Assembly: GCF_022347785.1 (NCBI RefSeq)
Contig: NZ_JAKRGA010000005.1
Coordinates: 289,519 to 353,518, forward strand
Length of the DNA stretch: 64,000 bases
Reading direction: 5' to 3'
DNA from: Psychrobium sp. MM17-31
GTDB lineage: Bacteria; Pseudomonadota; Gammaproteobacteria; Enterobacterales; Psychrobiaceae
Part shown: in pieces, positions 52,527 to 59,486 of the stretch
How positions within the stretch are numbered: position 1 is the stretch's first letter
How the letters are laid out: every line of letters starts with the position of its first letter
Program-made: the position numbers and the translations under genes
Notes under the pieces: model-generated
Databases searched by the model: none
The model's input: the letters and a program-made list of their open reading frames with translations, nothing else
Told to the model about the DNA's origin: nothing

Positions 52527-53757
52527 ATCTTAATGCATCAACTGGATTTAATTTTGCAGCTTTGATTGCCGGGGCAAGACCAAAGACTACCCCGATTAAG
52601 GTGGTAAAGCCAAATGAAAGTCCGATTGCCCACAATGGCACCATCACGCCATTAGAACCCGGCATAAATAGCGCTACCATGGACGCTAAACCATAACCGA
52701 GAATTAATCCGATCAGGCCACCTAATAGTGATAACAGCAAGGCCTCGACCAAGAACTGGAACAAGATAAACTGCGGACTAGCGCCTAGTGCTTTGGCAAT
52801 ACCGATTTCCTTAGTACGTTCGGTCACCGATACCAACATAATATTCATAATGCCAATACCGCCAACTAACAAACTAATACCAACGACGCCACCTGCCACT
52901 AAGGTGACTGATGTGGTAATACTTTCAAATTGTTTTTTAGTTTTCTCGGCAGTGACAAACTCAAAGTGATCTAAATCATCGCCGCTTAGTTTGTGTTTTT
53001 GACGCAATACCTGACGAATATTTTCTTTGATCGCCTTAAAATCTGCACCAGCAGCAGGCCTAAACATAATATCTATGTTGTCCGTTGCCTGAGAGCCATT
53101 AAGGGAACGAACTGTACTGAAAGGCGCGATAATGTAGTTGTCTTGATCAAAGCCAAACAAGCTCCCGCGCTTTTCCGCAAGACCAATCACCCGAAACCAA
53201 TCGCCGCTAAGATTAATGAACTCACCAATAGGATCTTCCGGCATATTGAGTTTTTTAGCTACTGATGCACCAATAAAGGCAACGCGGCGACGACGTAAAT
53301 CATCACTTTCAGATAAGAAACGTCCCAATTCAGGATAAACGTGAATGACCGCCTGATAGCTACTGTCAGTACCTATAATTTGAGTTTGGGTGTTATTGCG
53401 ACCGTATTGCACGCTAGAGCCTAAACTAAAGGCGCGCATTACCGCAGTCATGTCCTCGACGTTTTTAACTTTGCCCTTTAACAACAAGAAATCGTCGTAG
53501 CTGATTTTATTACTAACACCTAACATCTCTTGCTCTGGATTGGTGTAAGCGCGTAGTGTCACCATATCACTGCCTAAATCATCGAGCTGATCGGTAATAT
53601 TGGCACTTAAACTCTCCATGATGGCCACCACTGTGATTACCGCGCCGACGCCAATAATAATCCCCAGAGTGGTTAAGGCACTGCGCATTCCATGTGCGGT
53701 AATCGCTTGCATTGCTGCTTTAGAGCCTTCGTAGAAGGCGTGAAAAAATCTAGCCAT
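52519..53757 (-). CDS. MacB-type ABC transporter permease (FtsX domain)
   Basis: 412 residues. One N-terminal membrane helix, then a periplasmic domain of about 220 residues, then three C-terminal helices ([35 protein letters not shown]), the MacB/LolE topology. The ATPase is a separate gene just upstream. Overlaps both neighbours by 8 bp. Transports by mechanotransmission; substrate unknown. Confidence 0.92.
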
Positions 53758-54472
53758 GACTCGCTTCCTTGTGATTTAACACATCACTTTCAATTTGACC
53801 GTCAACGAGACGAATAACACGGCGACAATGATCAGCAATATCCGCTTCATGGGTTACCAAGATAATGGTGTGGCCTTGATCGTGAAGTTCATCGAATAAG
53901 TCCATAATGTCACGCGTGGTTTTACTATCGAGATTCCCCGTAGGTTCATCACCGAGAATAATCGCCGGATTAGTGACTAGGGCGCGCGCAATAGCTACCC
54001 GTTGACGTTGCCCACCTGAGAGCTGATTGGGCAAGTTTTTGAGCTTATCTGCTAATCCAACGCGTTTTAGGGCGTCTAATGCTAGTTGTTTGCGTTCACT
54101 ATTTGGCATCATGCGATAAATTAGCGGCTGCATCACGTTTTGTAACACGCTAGCACGCGGCAACAAGTTGAAGCTTTGAAAGATAAAGCCAACGCCATAA
54201 TTTCGAATTTCCGCAAGCTCGGCTTCACTTTGGCTGGCAACATTTTGATGATCGAGCCAATATTCACCAGCACTAGGGTTATCTAAACAACCTAAAATGT
54301 TCATTAACGTCGATTTTCCAGAGCCGGATGGGCCTGTAATTGCAACGTATTCATTTTTATAAATAGATAAATCGACATCCCGCAGTGCGTAAAACGCTTC
54401 ATCCGCCATGTGATAGCTTTTGCTAACCCCTTTTATGGCTATAACGGCTTCGTTTTGCTGGCTATTCATCAT
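53750..54472 (-). CDS. ABC transporter ATP-binding protein (MacB/LolD type)
   Basis: 240 residues. Walker [10 protein letters not shown], signature LSGGQRQRV, Walker [12 protein letters not shown] and switch VTHEAD are all intact. The [10 protein letters not shown] form is characteristic of MacB/LolD ATPases. Start ATG shares one base with the stop of the upstream adaptor gene (TAATG). Confidence 0.94.
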
Positions 54473-55617
54473 TAACTATCCTTTTTCAGACTAAGCTCAC
54501 TGCCCTCTTTAATATCGCGAACAATGCGACTAGGGCCGGTAACAACCACTTGCTCCTTTGATAAGCCACTGACAATTTGCTGACGCGTATCTGTGGCCAT
54601 ACCAACTTCAACCCACTGTTGCTTAGCAAGTCCATTTTCAATCACCCAAACATAGTGTTTATCACCCTCTTTCAAAATTGCAGAAATAGGCGCACTTAAT
54701 GATTCTTCAGCCTGTGCAGTAATGATTTCAGCACGACAGCTCATACCTGGATAAAGTTGCTGGCTGTCTTTAAGGAGTACTTTAACGCGGAAATATAGGC
54801 CTAAACCTTGGCGATCGGCGCGTGCCGATGTGCCGATACTAGTCACATCACCTTTTAGCGCCTGTTTTGGATTTGCCGCAGCGAAAACTTCCACCGCCAT
54901 TCCCGGTTTAACGCTAGCAATATCGGCTTCATCGACTCGTAACTCAGCCAAGATGGTTTTGGGATCAGCCAAGGTCATTAGTGCCGAACCAACGATGTTA
55001 GTGGTACCTGCGATAACAGTTTCACCCGGTTTAACATCAACTGCAGCAATAAGCCCCGGCATCGATGCTCTAAAAGTGGTTTTGCTCAGGCGATCTTTGG
55101 CAAAAGCTAACGATGCTTTGTTTTGATTAAGACGCTCTTGCGCCGCTTTTACCTTAATGCGGGCAACGTTTAGCTGACTGCGAAACTGCTCTAAATCATC
55201 AACGCCAATCAACTTTTGTTTAAACAGCTTAGATTTAACGGCGAATTGACGCTTCATTTCGTTGTACTGTTCTGTAACGAACTCAATTTCGATTTTCTGC
55301 GCATTAACCGCGGCTTGATTGTTAGCAACATCTGCTGAAAACGCCGTTTGATCAAGTTGCATCAGGATCTGACCTTGCTCTACATATTCCCCCTCTTCTA
55401 CTAGAACTTCAGTCACTATCCCTGTGACTTCTGAGCGAATTTGAATTTGGGTGTTAAAAATCAAATTACCCGAAGCTAAAATGCTGTCTGATAGCACTTC
55501 ACTAGCAATTTTTTCGCTACTTACCGAGAGAACTTGATGGTTGTCGCTATTTTTTTTCCAAAAGACTAAGGCACCTACCCCAGCGATTATAGCGATGAAT
55601 ATTAAGAGCTTTTTCAT
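54472..55617 (-). CDS. MacA/HlyD-type periplasmic adaptor protein
   Basis: 381 residues. N-terminal membrane anchor (residues 3-21), a lipoyl-like half motif ([24 protein letters not shown]), a coiled-coil hairpin (about 95-175), the second lipoyl half ([18 protein letters not shown]), then beta-barrel domains. Bridges the MacB-type permease to an outer-membrane channel; no TolC gene is nearby. Membrane-fusion protein of the efflux operon. Confidence 0.92.
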
Positions 55618-55644
55618 GGTCTGATCCTGTGACTCAAATTGCAG

Positions 55645-56352
55645 TTAAGCGGCGATAATAAACCAAGCACCGAAAATAACGATCAATGGTAAAACAGCGA
55701 ACAATGCAGATTTAACCATCGACGTTTTTAAGCAACGATTAAAACCAACAGCCGCAAGAATCACTGACCAAATAGCGAATAGATTTAGAGATTCAGCCCA
55801 AGCATATAACGAATCTGTAGGACCATAATTAAACACAAGTTGGTTTAAAGAAGCATAATTAGCCATCGATAGGGGTAAATCTGCAGTAGCCGCACTTAAA
55901 AACAATGCCATAAAACCAAGTGTGTTAATGATAGACGGCATTTGCGTCCAAATAGTGAACGTGAACCAATCACCAAAAGATAATTCAGGCTCGGCACCAC
56001 CCGCTGTTTTACCGATAATTAAGTAGTAAGTTGCGAATAGTAAGCTGACGACTGGTACGAAAATAGCCGCAGAAACAGCAGCCATAATTCCCACGTAATC
56101 GGCCATCATTGTCATGGCTTCTCGTGCAGCTTCGCGCTCAGCTGGTGACATATCGCCAGCCGCCATCAATTGTTGCTCAACGATCCATGAGCTAGACATA
56201 CCGCCAAAGAACATCACTGAGCTAACGGCTGTAATGCCGATAATTAGCAGCATGCCCGCAATAGCCCATTTTTTATTGGCTTTTAGATTGTCGAAAACAG
56301 ATTTTGGCTCAACGAATATATTCACAAGAGCCATAGGTGAAGAGTTACTCAT
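55645..56352 (-). CDS. Yip1-domain membrane protein
   Basis: 235 residues with five hydrophobic segments (about 28-50, 90-112, 130-155, 190-210, 215-233). The overall pattern fits Yip1-family membrane proteins, found in bacteria near transporter genes with unknown role. Its ATG overlaps the stop of a 50-residue peptide gene (ATGA) and it lies 27 bp before the MacA-like gene. Confidence 0.75.
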   Translation of the reverse strand: MSNSSPMALVNIFVEPKSVFDNLKANKKWAIAGMLLIIGITAVSSVMFFGGMSSSWIVEQQLMAAGDMSPAEREAAREAMTMMADYVGIMAAVSAAIFVPVVSLLFATYYLIIGKTAGGAEPELSFGDWFTFTIWTQMPSIINTLGFMALFLSAATADLPLSMANYASLNQLVFNYGPTDSLYAWAESLNLFAIWSVILAAVGFNRCLKTSMVKSALFAVLPLIVIFGAWFIIAA

Positions 56353-56667: not shown

Positions 56668-58557
56668 TTAGCCAGCTTTTTTCAGTAAGCCTTTCTTTTT
56701 CATGTACACCAACAACAGCGAAATTGCCGCTGGCGTAATGCCAGAAATGCGACTTGCCATACCGAGTGTAGCAGGGCGTGCTTCGGTAAGTTTTGCGACA
56801 ACTTCATTAGATAAACCAGATACTTGGCTGTAATCTAAATCGATTGGTAGCAAGGTATTTTCATTGCGTTGTTGCTTTTCAACCTCATCCATTTGACGAG
56901 CAATGTAGCCAGCGTACTTGATTTGAGTCTGCACTTGGTAAGCGGCGTCTTCTTTCTCTAAGCCAGGACCAAAACCGTCAATTTTCATTAGCTCATCATA
57001 GGTAACTTCAGGACGAGTTAATAAATCTTTTAAACTAGCTTCGCGGCTTAATGGTGTTTTCAACATCTGATTAAGCTCGGCACTTTGTTCGCTTTTCGCT
57101 TGTACCCAATGTGATGCCAAACGTTGTTTTTCTTGCTCAACGCTTTCGATCTTTTCGTTAAATAACTTCCAGCGATGATCGTCAACTAAGCCTAACTCAC
57201 GACCTTGTTCAGTTAAGCGAATATCGGCGTTATCTTCACGCAATAACAAGCGATATTCGGCACGACTGGTAAACATACGGTACGGTTCTTTAGTACCTAG
57301 CGTTGATAAATCATCAATTAATACGCCCATGTAAGCTTGGTTGCGTTGTGGTGACCACACATCGAGATCTTGCGCTTGGCGTGCCGCATTTAAACCAGCG
57401 ATCAAACCTTGGGCACCCGCTTCTTCATAGCCAGTTGTACCGTTAATTTGACCAGCAAAGAATAAGCCGTTGATAAATTTGTTTTCTAAACTCGGTTTTA
57501 GATCGCGAGGATCGAAGTAATCGTATTCGATGGCATAACCAGGGCGAGTGATAAATGCATTTTCAAAACCCTTCATCGAATTAACCAGTTTTACTTGGAC
57601 ATCAAACGGCAAGCTGGTGGAAATACCATTTGGGTAAACTTCGTTAGTCGTTAAACCTTCTGGCTCAACGAAAATTTGGTGTGAAGTTTTGTCGGCAAAA
57701 CGGGTAATTTTATCTTCAATAGAAGGGCAGTAGCGCGGGCCAGTTCCTTCAATAACACCGGTAAACATCGGGCTGCGATCAAGACCATTACGAATAATGT
57801 CGTGAGTTTGTTCGTTGGTGTGAGTGATGTAACACGGAATTTGCTCAGGGTGATCTTCTTTACTACCAATAAAAGAGAAAGTAGGTAACGGATTATCACC
57901 AGGCTGTGCTTCAAGTTTTGAAAAGTCGATAGTTCGCGCATCGATACGCGGTGGTGTTCCAGTTTTTAAACGATCAACACGCAATGGTAATTCGCGTAAA
58001 CGATGGGCTAATTTAATAGATGCAGGATCACCAGCACGACCTCCCGTATGATTTTCTAAACCAATGTGAATAGTGCCACCAAGGAAAGTACCGACGGTTA
58101 ATACCACTGCTTTAGCGGTAAACTTAATGCCCATTTGGGTAATAACACCACAAACTTGATCGTTTTCAACGATTAGATCATCACAAGATTGTTGGAAGAT
58201 GGTGAGGTTAGGTTGGTTTTCTAACTTAGCACGCACAGCCGCTTTGTATAACGCGCGGTCTGTTTGAGCACGAGTTGCGCGAACTGCTGGGCCTTTACTT
58301 GAATTTAAAGTACGAAATTGGATACCGGCAAGATCGGTAGCTTGTGCCATGTAACCACCAAGGGCGTCGATCTCTTTAACTAAATGGCCTTTACCAATAC
58401 CACCAATGGCTGGGTTACAAGACATTTGGCCTAGGGTATCGATGTTATGTGTTAACAAGAGGGTTTGTTGCCCCATACGAGCCGCTGCTAGTGCCGCTTC
58501 AGTGCCTGCATGACCACCACCAACGACAATTACGTCAAACTGTTTGTTAAATAACAT
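56668..58557 (-). CDS. mnmG: tRNA uridine-5-carboxymethylaminomethyl modification enzyme
   Basis: 629 residues, the E. coli size. FAD-binding [11 protein letters not shown] (about 13-23), [21 protein letters not shown], and the C-terminal helical domain that meets MnmE ([16 protein letters not shown]) are all present. With MnmE it modifies the wobble uridine of several tRNAs. In gammaproteobacteria it flanks oriC, as here. The usual rsmG-parA-parB genes do not follow; a terminator does. Confidence 0.96.
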
Positions 58558-58640
58558 TTCTCATACCACGTGTTTCAAAAGGGCGAATATTCTACCAATT
58601 TTTTATCTGATCTAAAACGATCATTTTGGCGAGATCCAAC

Positions 58641-58692
58641 ACATAATATAAATAGAATTATTTAAAGATCTTTATTAATTCTTGTTATTAAC
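58641..58692. other. DNA unwinding element of oriC
   Basis: About 50 bp of almost pure A/T on the mnmG side. It contains GATCTTTATTAAT (58667-58679), which matches the E. coli 13-mer GATCTNTTNTTTT at 10 of 13 positions. Confidence 0.7.
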
Positions 58693-58705
58693 GATCGCCT
58701 AGATC

Positions 58706-58714
58706 TGTGCGTAA
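58706..58714 (-). promoter_or_regulatory. DnaA box, one mismatch
   Basis: TTACGCACA on the minus strand differs from TTATNCACA at one base. It is the box closest to the unwinding element. Confidence 0.5.
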
Positions 58715-58794
58715 GTGATCTAAGATCCTGATGATCAAGATCATAATGGCGATCATAAAGTGTTAAATGATCGCGATCTATCTTGGGATCAAAG

Positions 58795-58803
58795 TGTGAA
58801 TAA
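58795..58803 (-). promoter_or_regulatory. DnaA box, perfect
   Basis: TTATTCACA on the minus strand, a perfect match to TTATNCACA inside oriC. Confidence 0.85.
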
Positions 58804-58812
58804 AAGCGCCAG

Positions 58813-58821
58813 TTATCCACA
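58813..58821 (+). promoter_or_regulatory. DnaA box, perfect high-affinity type
   Basis: TTATCCACA, the strongest-binding form in E. coli (R1/R4 type), 9 bp from the inverted box on the minus strand. Confidence 0.9.
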
Positions 58822-58883
58822 GAGAGGTTTGGAAATAAAGTTATTAACGAATAAGTTTTTTTTAATTAGGGGATATAAGGTAG

Positions 58884-58892
58884 TTATTCACA
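58884..58892 (+). promoter_or_regulatory. DnaA box, perfect
   Basis: TTATTCACA on the plus strand, mioC-proximal. Two identical weaker nonamers TTATTAACG lie at 58685-58693 and 58841-58849. Confidence 0.85.
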
Positions 58893-58949
58893 GGTTAGAT
58901 CTAATAAAAAGTGTGATCTTGAATAAACTATTTTTAGCAAACCAATAAA

Positions 58950-58984
58950 AAAACGGATCTCAATGGGTAATTGAGATCCGTTTT
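58950..58984 (-). terminator. Strong terminator between mioC and oriC
   Basis: Perfect 15-bp stem starting AAAACGGATCTC with a 5-nt loop. Read leftward from mioC it is followed by a run of T. It contains two GATC sites and would keep mioC transcription out of the origin. Confidence 0.85.
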
Positions 58985-59039
58985 ATGGCGATCGTAAGCG
59001 CTGTTTTTATTGTGATCTTGGCGTTTGAGCACATTAAAT

Positions 59040-59486
59040 CTAGCCCTCTAGCTTGTCTTTCCACTGAACAAACCAAGTTTCTGCGAGATCTTCAGGGATT
59101 TCACCGGTGCTTACGTCGATATTTAATGGATCCACCAGCGCTATTGCACCGCGATCTCGCATCATTTGATCTACGGTATTTCCCGCTTGGCAGAAGGTGT
59201 CGTAGTTAGTGTCACCTAGCGCACATACCGCGTAATCTATGTGTTTTAAGTCAGTTTGAATGGCTAGTTGATCGATAAAGTTTTGAATATTGTCAGGGAA
59301 ATCACCAGCGCCGTGAGTTGAGGTACAGATGATCCATGTTTGGGGAACTTTGAGATCGAAATCATTGAGATCCGTCGCTAAATGTTGGTTAACTTCAACG
59401 CCATCTGGAACTAAGGTTGCTAGATGATCGGCAACGTATTCGCTGGAGCCCAGCATAGTACCGACAATAAAATGAATTGGTTTCAT
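59040..59486 (-). CDS. mioC: Flavodoxin-like protein MioC
   Basis: 148 residues of the flavodoxin fold. The FMN phosphate loop lies in IVGTMLGSSEYVAD; the flavin-flanking loops are STHGAGDFPDN and ALGDTNYDTF. E. coli MioC (147 residues) is a short flavodoxin linked to biotin synthase activity and sits beside oriC, as here. Its start is 8 bp after the stop of a TetR gene, so the two probably form one transcript. Confidence 0.93.
   Translation of the reverse strand: MKPIHFIVGTMLGSSEYVADHLATLVPDGVEVNQHLATDLNDFDLKVPQTWIICTSTHGAGDFPDNIQNFIDQLAIQTDLKHIDYAVCALGDTNYDTFCQAGNTVDQMMRDRGAIALVDPLNIDVSTGEIPEDLAETWFVQWKDKLEG

Follow-up and report, generated by a model that had tools for sequence, protein, structure and literature searches.

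A predicted E. coli-type oriC between mnmG and mioC in Psychrobium sp. MM17-31, with a consensus DnaA box at the I2 position

Introduction

The closest described system to the locus analysed here is oriC of Escherichia coli K-12 (NC_000913.3, 3925744-3925975). It lies in the gap between mnmG and mioC, with an A/T-rich element on the mnmG side, and three of its DnaA boxes, R1, R2 and R4, match the motif TTATNCACA. SeqA, Dam, IHF-alpha and Hda are partners of this origin. The portion of PMC6727663 used here describes four low-affinity sites, 2 bp apart, in each gap between strong boxes; R1 and R5M are 46 bp apart, R1 passes DnaA to R5M over an IHF bend, and I2 is a weak site that prefers DnaA-ATP. 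On the distances given in that portion, R5M would start at position 223 of the E. coli mnmG-mioC gap and the fourth low-affinity site at 256, which is R2 minus 18 bp.

We have analysed a stretch of 64,000 nucleotides from Psychrobium sp. MM17-31, here called the window (G000:C5:289519-353518, in an assembly of 4,169,603 bases and nine contigs). From its sequence we predict, with near certainty, that the interval 58558-59039 between mnmG and mioC holds the oriC of an E. coli-type chromosome.

Results

The gap and its neighbours

The predicted origin is flanked by mnmG and mioC, both on the reverse strand, in the order and on the strands of E. coli MG1655, as a first-pass annotation of this DNA had said. 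The coordinates of all features are collected in Table 1. With the first 100 residues of mnmG as query, every one of the 39 genomes searched gave a match (its own genome included), and 30 of these loci were examined.

Table 1. Features of the mnmG-mioC region, in window coordinates
Feature	Position	Strand	Basis or remark
mnmG (gidA)	56668..58557	-	transcribed away from the predicted oriC; first 100 residues match in 39/39 genomes
Conserved core of the predicted oriC	58578..58893	.	boundaries from alignment of nine same-genus genomes
Leader block GATCTAAAACGATCA	58609..58623	.	9/9 genus genomes; 0/21 other loci; absent in E. coli
20 GATC (Dam/SeqA) sites	58609..59017	.	count in gap; SeqA and Dam genes present
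A/T-rich stretch, probable DNA unwinding element	58632..58691	.	83% A+T in 60 bp; aligned with E. coli 13-mer region
R1-equivalent, off-consensus TTACGCACA	58706..58714	-	107 bp left of R2 in 9/9 genus genomes
Consensus DnaA box TTATTCACA at E. coli low-affinity I2 position	58795..58803	-	R2 minus 18 bp; TTATNCACA in 8/9 genus genomes
R2-equivalent DnaA box TTATCCACA	58813..58821	+	position aligned with E. coli and genus loci
R4-equivalent DnaA box TTATTCACA, right border of the predicted origin	58884..58892	+	71 bp right of R2 in 9/9 genus genomes
Intrinsic-terminator-like hairpin between mioC end and predicted oriC	58950..58984	-	15-pair stem then T; 0/200 mononucleotide shuffles as good
mioC-type flavodoxin gene	59040..59486	-	transcribed towards the predicted oriC; product 36% identical to E. 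coli mioC product

To the right of the gap lie, among others, mioC, a TetR-type regulator, a sigma factor, a vWA protein and a GH97-type glycosidase, followed farther right by mnmE, yidC, rnpA and then dnaA-dnaN-recF-gyrB, all four of these rightward, with the dnaA start about 11 kb from the gap. The names dnaA and rsmG come from family searches, and the other neighbours were named from reading their translations. Genes for SeqA (E 2.1e-37), Dam (1.3e-91), IHF-alpha (4.2e-45) and Hda (3.2e-85) are present in the genome, and every match exceeds its curated cut-off.

Gene order beyond mnmG was compared in seven of the eight same-genus relatives and six outgroup genomes. The rsmG gene, which adjoins mnmG in all six outgroups (five families), lies here at C5:273169-273798, about 72 kb from mnmG, beside genes reading as parA, parB and ATP synthase. 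In none of the seven fetched relatives did the 6-11 kb read past mnmG turn up rsmG, and the break between mnmG and rsmG may be genus-wide. The place of rsmG in the outgroups is occupied by genes reading as YIP1-like, membrane-fusion and ABC transporter proteins (53750-56352), which likewise follow mnmG in three of the seven relatives (G002, G006, G008).

An Rfam scan of the window gave no matches at gathering thresholds. A search of phage records returned six weak, uninformative matches covering 22-24% of the query, all within its mnmG part.

DnaA boxes and their geometry

The gap contains three matches to TTATNCACA, two of them inverted and 9 bp apart, as the first reading had it. The near-perfect box that it also listed is probably TTACGCACA at the R1-equivalent position, with one mismatch to TTATNCACA. 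Its remark that the box set is sparser than in E. coli does not hold, because the same criterion gives three boxes in E. coli oriC too.

The R1, R2 and R4 equivalents agree with E. coli in position and orientation, but the three consensus boxes differ in place. The R1-equivalent is off-consensus here, and it is the box 18 bp left of R2 that has the consensus. We take the fourth low-affinity site of E. coli, at R2 minus 18 bp, to be I2; the E. coli sequence there reads CTGATCCCA, on the same strand. Thus this genome has a consensus box where E. coli has a weak site, and an off-consensus sequence at the usual anchor. At the R5M position the 9-mer differs from TTATNCACA by four mismatches, against one in E. 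coli. About 150 bp, including the terminator-like hairpin, separate R4 from mioC, compared with 22 bp in E. coli.

Single boxes are uninformative. Across the window there are 17 boxes with no more than one mismatch to TTATCCACA, where 16.4 are expected, and exact TTATCCACA occurs 34 times in the genome against 37 for the reversed control, so single perfect boxes are not enriched. It is the grouping and geometry of the boxes that bear the weight.

The R2/R4 pair (both boxes on the plus strand, at most one mismatch each) is present at 24 of the 30 mnmG loci. Six lack it (L035, L040, L041, L043, L047, L051). A contig end truncates L035, and in the five uncut loci the origin may lie elsewhere or have diverged. 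The table of sites omits these six loci and L046. The R2-R4 distance is 71 bp in all nine genus genomes (window included), 72-74 bp at the 15 other loci with the pair and 74 bp in E. coli. The best R1 candidate, sought 95-118 bp left of R2, lies at 107 bp throughout the genus, at 104-107 bp in the 15 others and at 106 bp in E. coli.

Conservation within the genus

In the alignment of nine same-genus genomes there are 6-15 invariant columns per 20-bp block from 58578 to 58897, and the following 140 bp (58898-59037) have just one. Because conservation breaks off immediately beyond the last box, we place the core at approximately 58578-58893, ending with the R4-equivalent. The interval 58558-59039 given by the first-pass annotation does contain the predicted origin, but it is the whole intergenic gap and is too wide on the mioC side, where genus conservation ends at about 58893.

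Across the nine genus genomes the R1 position reads TTACGCACA, TTATCAACA, TTACACACA or TTACTAACA, and never TTATNCACA. Eight of the nine carry TTATNCACA, in R1 orientation, at R2 minus 18 bp, and the remaining one has a single mismatch there.

This pattern suggests another way in which the origin might work: the strong I2-position box, and not R1, would nucleate the left DnaA array, given that R1 is weak in the genus. It would be a refinement of the oriC explanation and not its opposite, and the origin would rely less on the IHF bend from R1 to R5M, over which DnaA is passed in E. coli, where I2 itself is weak and prefers DnaA-ATP (PMC6727663, in the portion used). The constancy of the off-consensus R1 and of the consensus box across the genus speaks for it. 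However, R1 boxes with one mismatch may still bind DnaA, and in the wider order the two patterns are not mutually exclusive. Among 197 genomes the I2-R2 pair occurs in 26 (6/6 of this genus and 20 in three other families) and the R1-R2 pair in 34 (0/6 of this genus), with reversed controls of 0 for both; four genomes have both pairs, where about 4.5 are expected if the two are independent. We regard nucleation from the I2 position as possible but doubtful.

A general trade-off in the order between loss of R1 and gain of I2 is not supported by this number. These counts are of whole-genome matches; among the 20 genomes of other families, the pair was confirmed beside mnmG in the two that were checked, G016 and G038. 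All 20, from families f7, f9 and f27, share with the window the inverted TTATNCACA I2-R2 pair 9 bp apart, but four of them, all in f9, also carry a consensus box at the R1 distance.

GATC sites

The first reading had counted 20 GATC sites in 482 bp, and a recount gave 20 in 58558-59039. E. coli is likewise dense in GATC, with 14 in the 378 bp between its mnmG and mioC. For the gap analysed here, a first-order Markov model predicts 2.26 sites (sd 1.47), with a maximum of 11 in 5000 simulations, and the mean over the 2,294,107 unmasked bases read from the genome is 1.43 per 482 bp. The densest 482-bp window of the 2.29 Mb read (55% of the genome) starts at 58609 and holds 21 sites, one of them inside mioC. 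The next densest among those listed, with windows starting less than 600 bp from a listed one skipped, has 10 sites and falls within the TetR-type gene, some 1 kb farther right.

The A/T-rich element and the mnmG-side leader

An A/T-only stretch had been noted on the mnmG side. This side is indeed the A/T-richest part, but no notable A/T-only stretch stands there: the two longest runs on this side measure 12 and 11 bp with a single base between them (58643-58666), a run of 13 bp on the mioC side is longer than any other in the gap, and runs of at least 13 bp number 24 in the whole window. The motifs of gammaproteobacterial oriC given in the portion of PMC7174414 used here are the DnaA box, AAAGATCTTT and A/T-rich trio-like motifs. 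AAAGATCTTT is present inside the A/T-rich element of the window. The leader block overlaps a weak mnmG promoter-like match (58616-58589, minus strand) that is not above chance, with 1 found and 3.4 expected.

The hairpin on the mioC side

The stem of the terminator-like hairpin contains two GATC sites. A similar hairpin is found in two of the eight same-genus relatives. As a genus-wide trait the terminator was rejected, since strong stems (score 14-15, 0/200 shuffles as good) occur in only three of the nine genus genomes, window included; in the other six, 29 to 166 of 200 shuffles did as well, and their stems do not stand out clearly from chance. In E. coli, mioC transcription enters oriC, as stated in the portion of PMC6606810 used. 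The hairpin may insulate the predicted origin from mioC in this species.

GC skew and the terminus

Skew was calculated for the whole of C5 (partly masked) and for 20-kb stretches of the other eight contigs. Of 119 stretches 115 were scored, four on C5 being largely masked, and the sample covers 55% of the genome. Only switches within a contig are counted, because the sign of a contig depends on its orientation; a skew minimum or maximum keeps its nature whichever way the contig is turned.

Among the 115 scored stretches of the nine contigs, the skew turns from negative to positive only at the gap, and from positive to negative only on C3. Of the 16 scored stretches on C5, 13 are negative; the final three are positive, and the gap lies in the first of these three. 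This positive arm is short because C5 terminates 38 kb right of the predicted origin. The cumulative minimum of C5 falls at window position 57432, inside mnmG and 1.1 kb left of the gap. On C3 the first four stretches are positive and the other 18 negative, with the turn at about 140-200 kb. The remaining contigs have a single sign, negative for C1 (25/25) and C2 (24/24), and positive for C4 (12/12), C6 (6/6), C7 (4/4), C8 (3/3) and C9 (3/3). The first-pass annotation had expected the minimum at this locus and would have counted one elsewhere against an origin; no minimum lies elsewhere in the 55% of the genome that was covered.

A pattern search with what we take to be the E. coli dif sequence found one dif-like site, C3:171789, with 2 mismatches of 28 (control 0), within the positive-to-negative switch of C3. 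Origin and terminus are each located once in the DNA read, and the two are mutually consistent.

These data bear on whether the gap could be only a regulatory region of mnmG and mioC with an accidental GATC cluster, replication starting elsewhere, for example beside dnaA. In many bacteria oriC adjoins dnaA, the distance to dnaA-dnaN is here no more than about 11 kb, and perfect TTATCCACA matches are not uncommon genome-wide, but the skew minimum is some 12.5 kb from dnaA and close to the gap, where the GATC density and the fixed, conserved box geometry also sit, and we consider this reading very improbable.

Discussion

The interpretation of the gap as oriC, made in the first-pass annotation, is supported by the skew minimum, the dif-like site at the skew maximum, the nearby dnaA-dnaN-recF-gyrB genes, the GATC cluster and the conserved box geometry. 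Matched against an E. coli-type oriC, the locus has an R1/R2/R4-like box layout in which the R1 position is kept off-consensus, a GATC cluster in a genome with Dam and SeqA genes, and mnmG and mioC as neighbours. It has a GC-skew minimum at the predicted origin with a dif-like site at the maximum (in 55% of the genome, taken contig by contig), and, as judged by composition and alignment, an A/T-rich unwinding element adjoining the boxes. The locus is very probably an ordinary gammaproteobacterial oriC with a lineage-specific arrangement of boxes, one strong box being at an unusual position.

By analogy with E. coli, DnaA would bind to R2, to R4 and to the consensus box that stands inverted at the I2 position, and DnaA oligomers would then occupy weaker sites to the left and right of R2. 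Opening of the A/T-rich element next to mnmG would be followed by helicase loading. Newly copied, hemimethylated GATC sites would be bound by SeqA, with re-initiation delayed, and Hda would reset DnaA-ATP. We infer DnaA binding, opening, sequestration by SeqA and the order of these events at this origin from those in E. coli.

What the shift between the R1 and I2 boxes means in function is a guess. In this genus the left half of oriC might have had its leading DnaA anchor shifted from R1 to the I2 position, so that the orisome would start around the central I2-R2 inverted pair and depend less on the IHF bend; we think this rather unlikely.

The placing of an origin and of a dif-like site marking the terminus makes a replichore-based analysis of this genome possible. 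The strong box at the I2 position would offer a naturally occurring variant with which to test at which DnaA sites the orisome is nucleated, and the pair that it forms with R2 is found also in three other families of the order.
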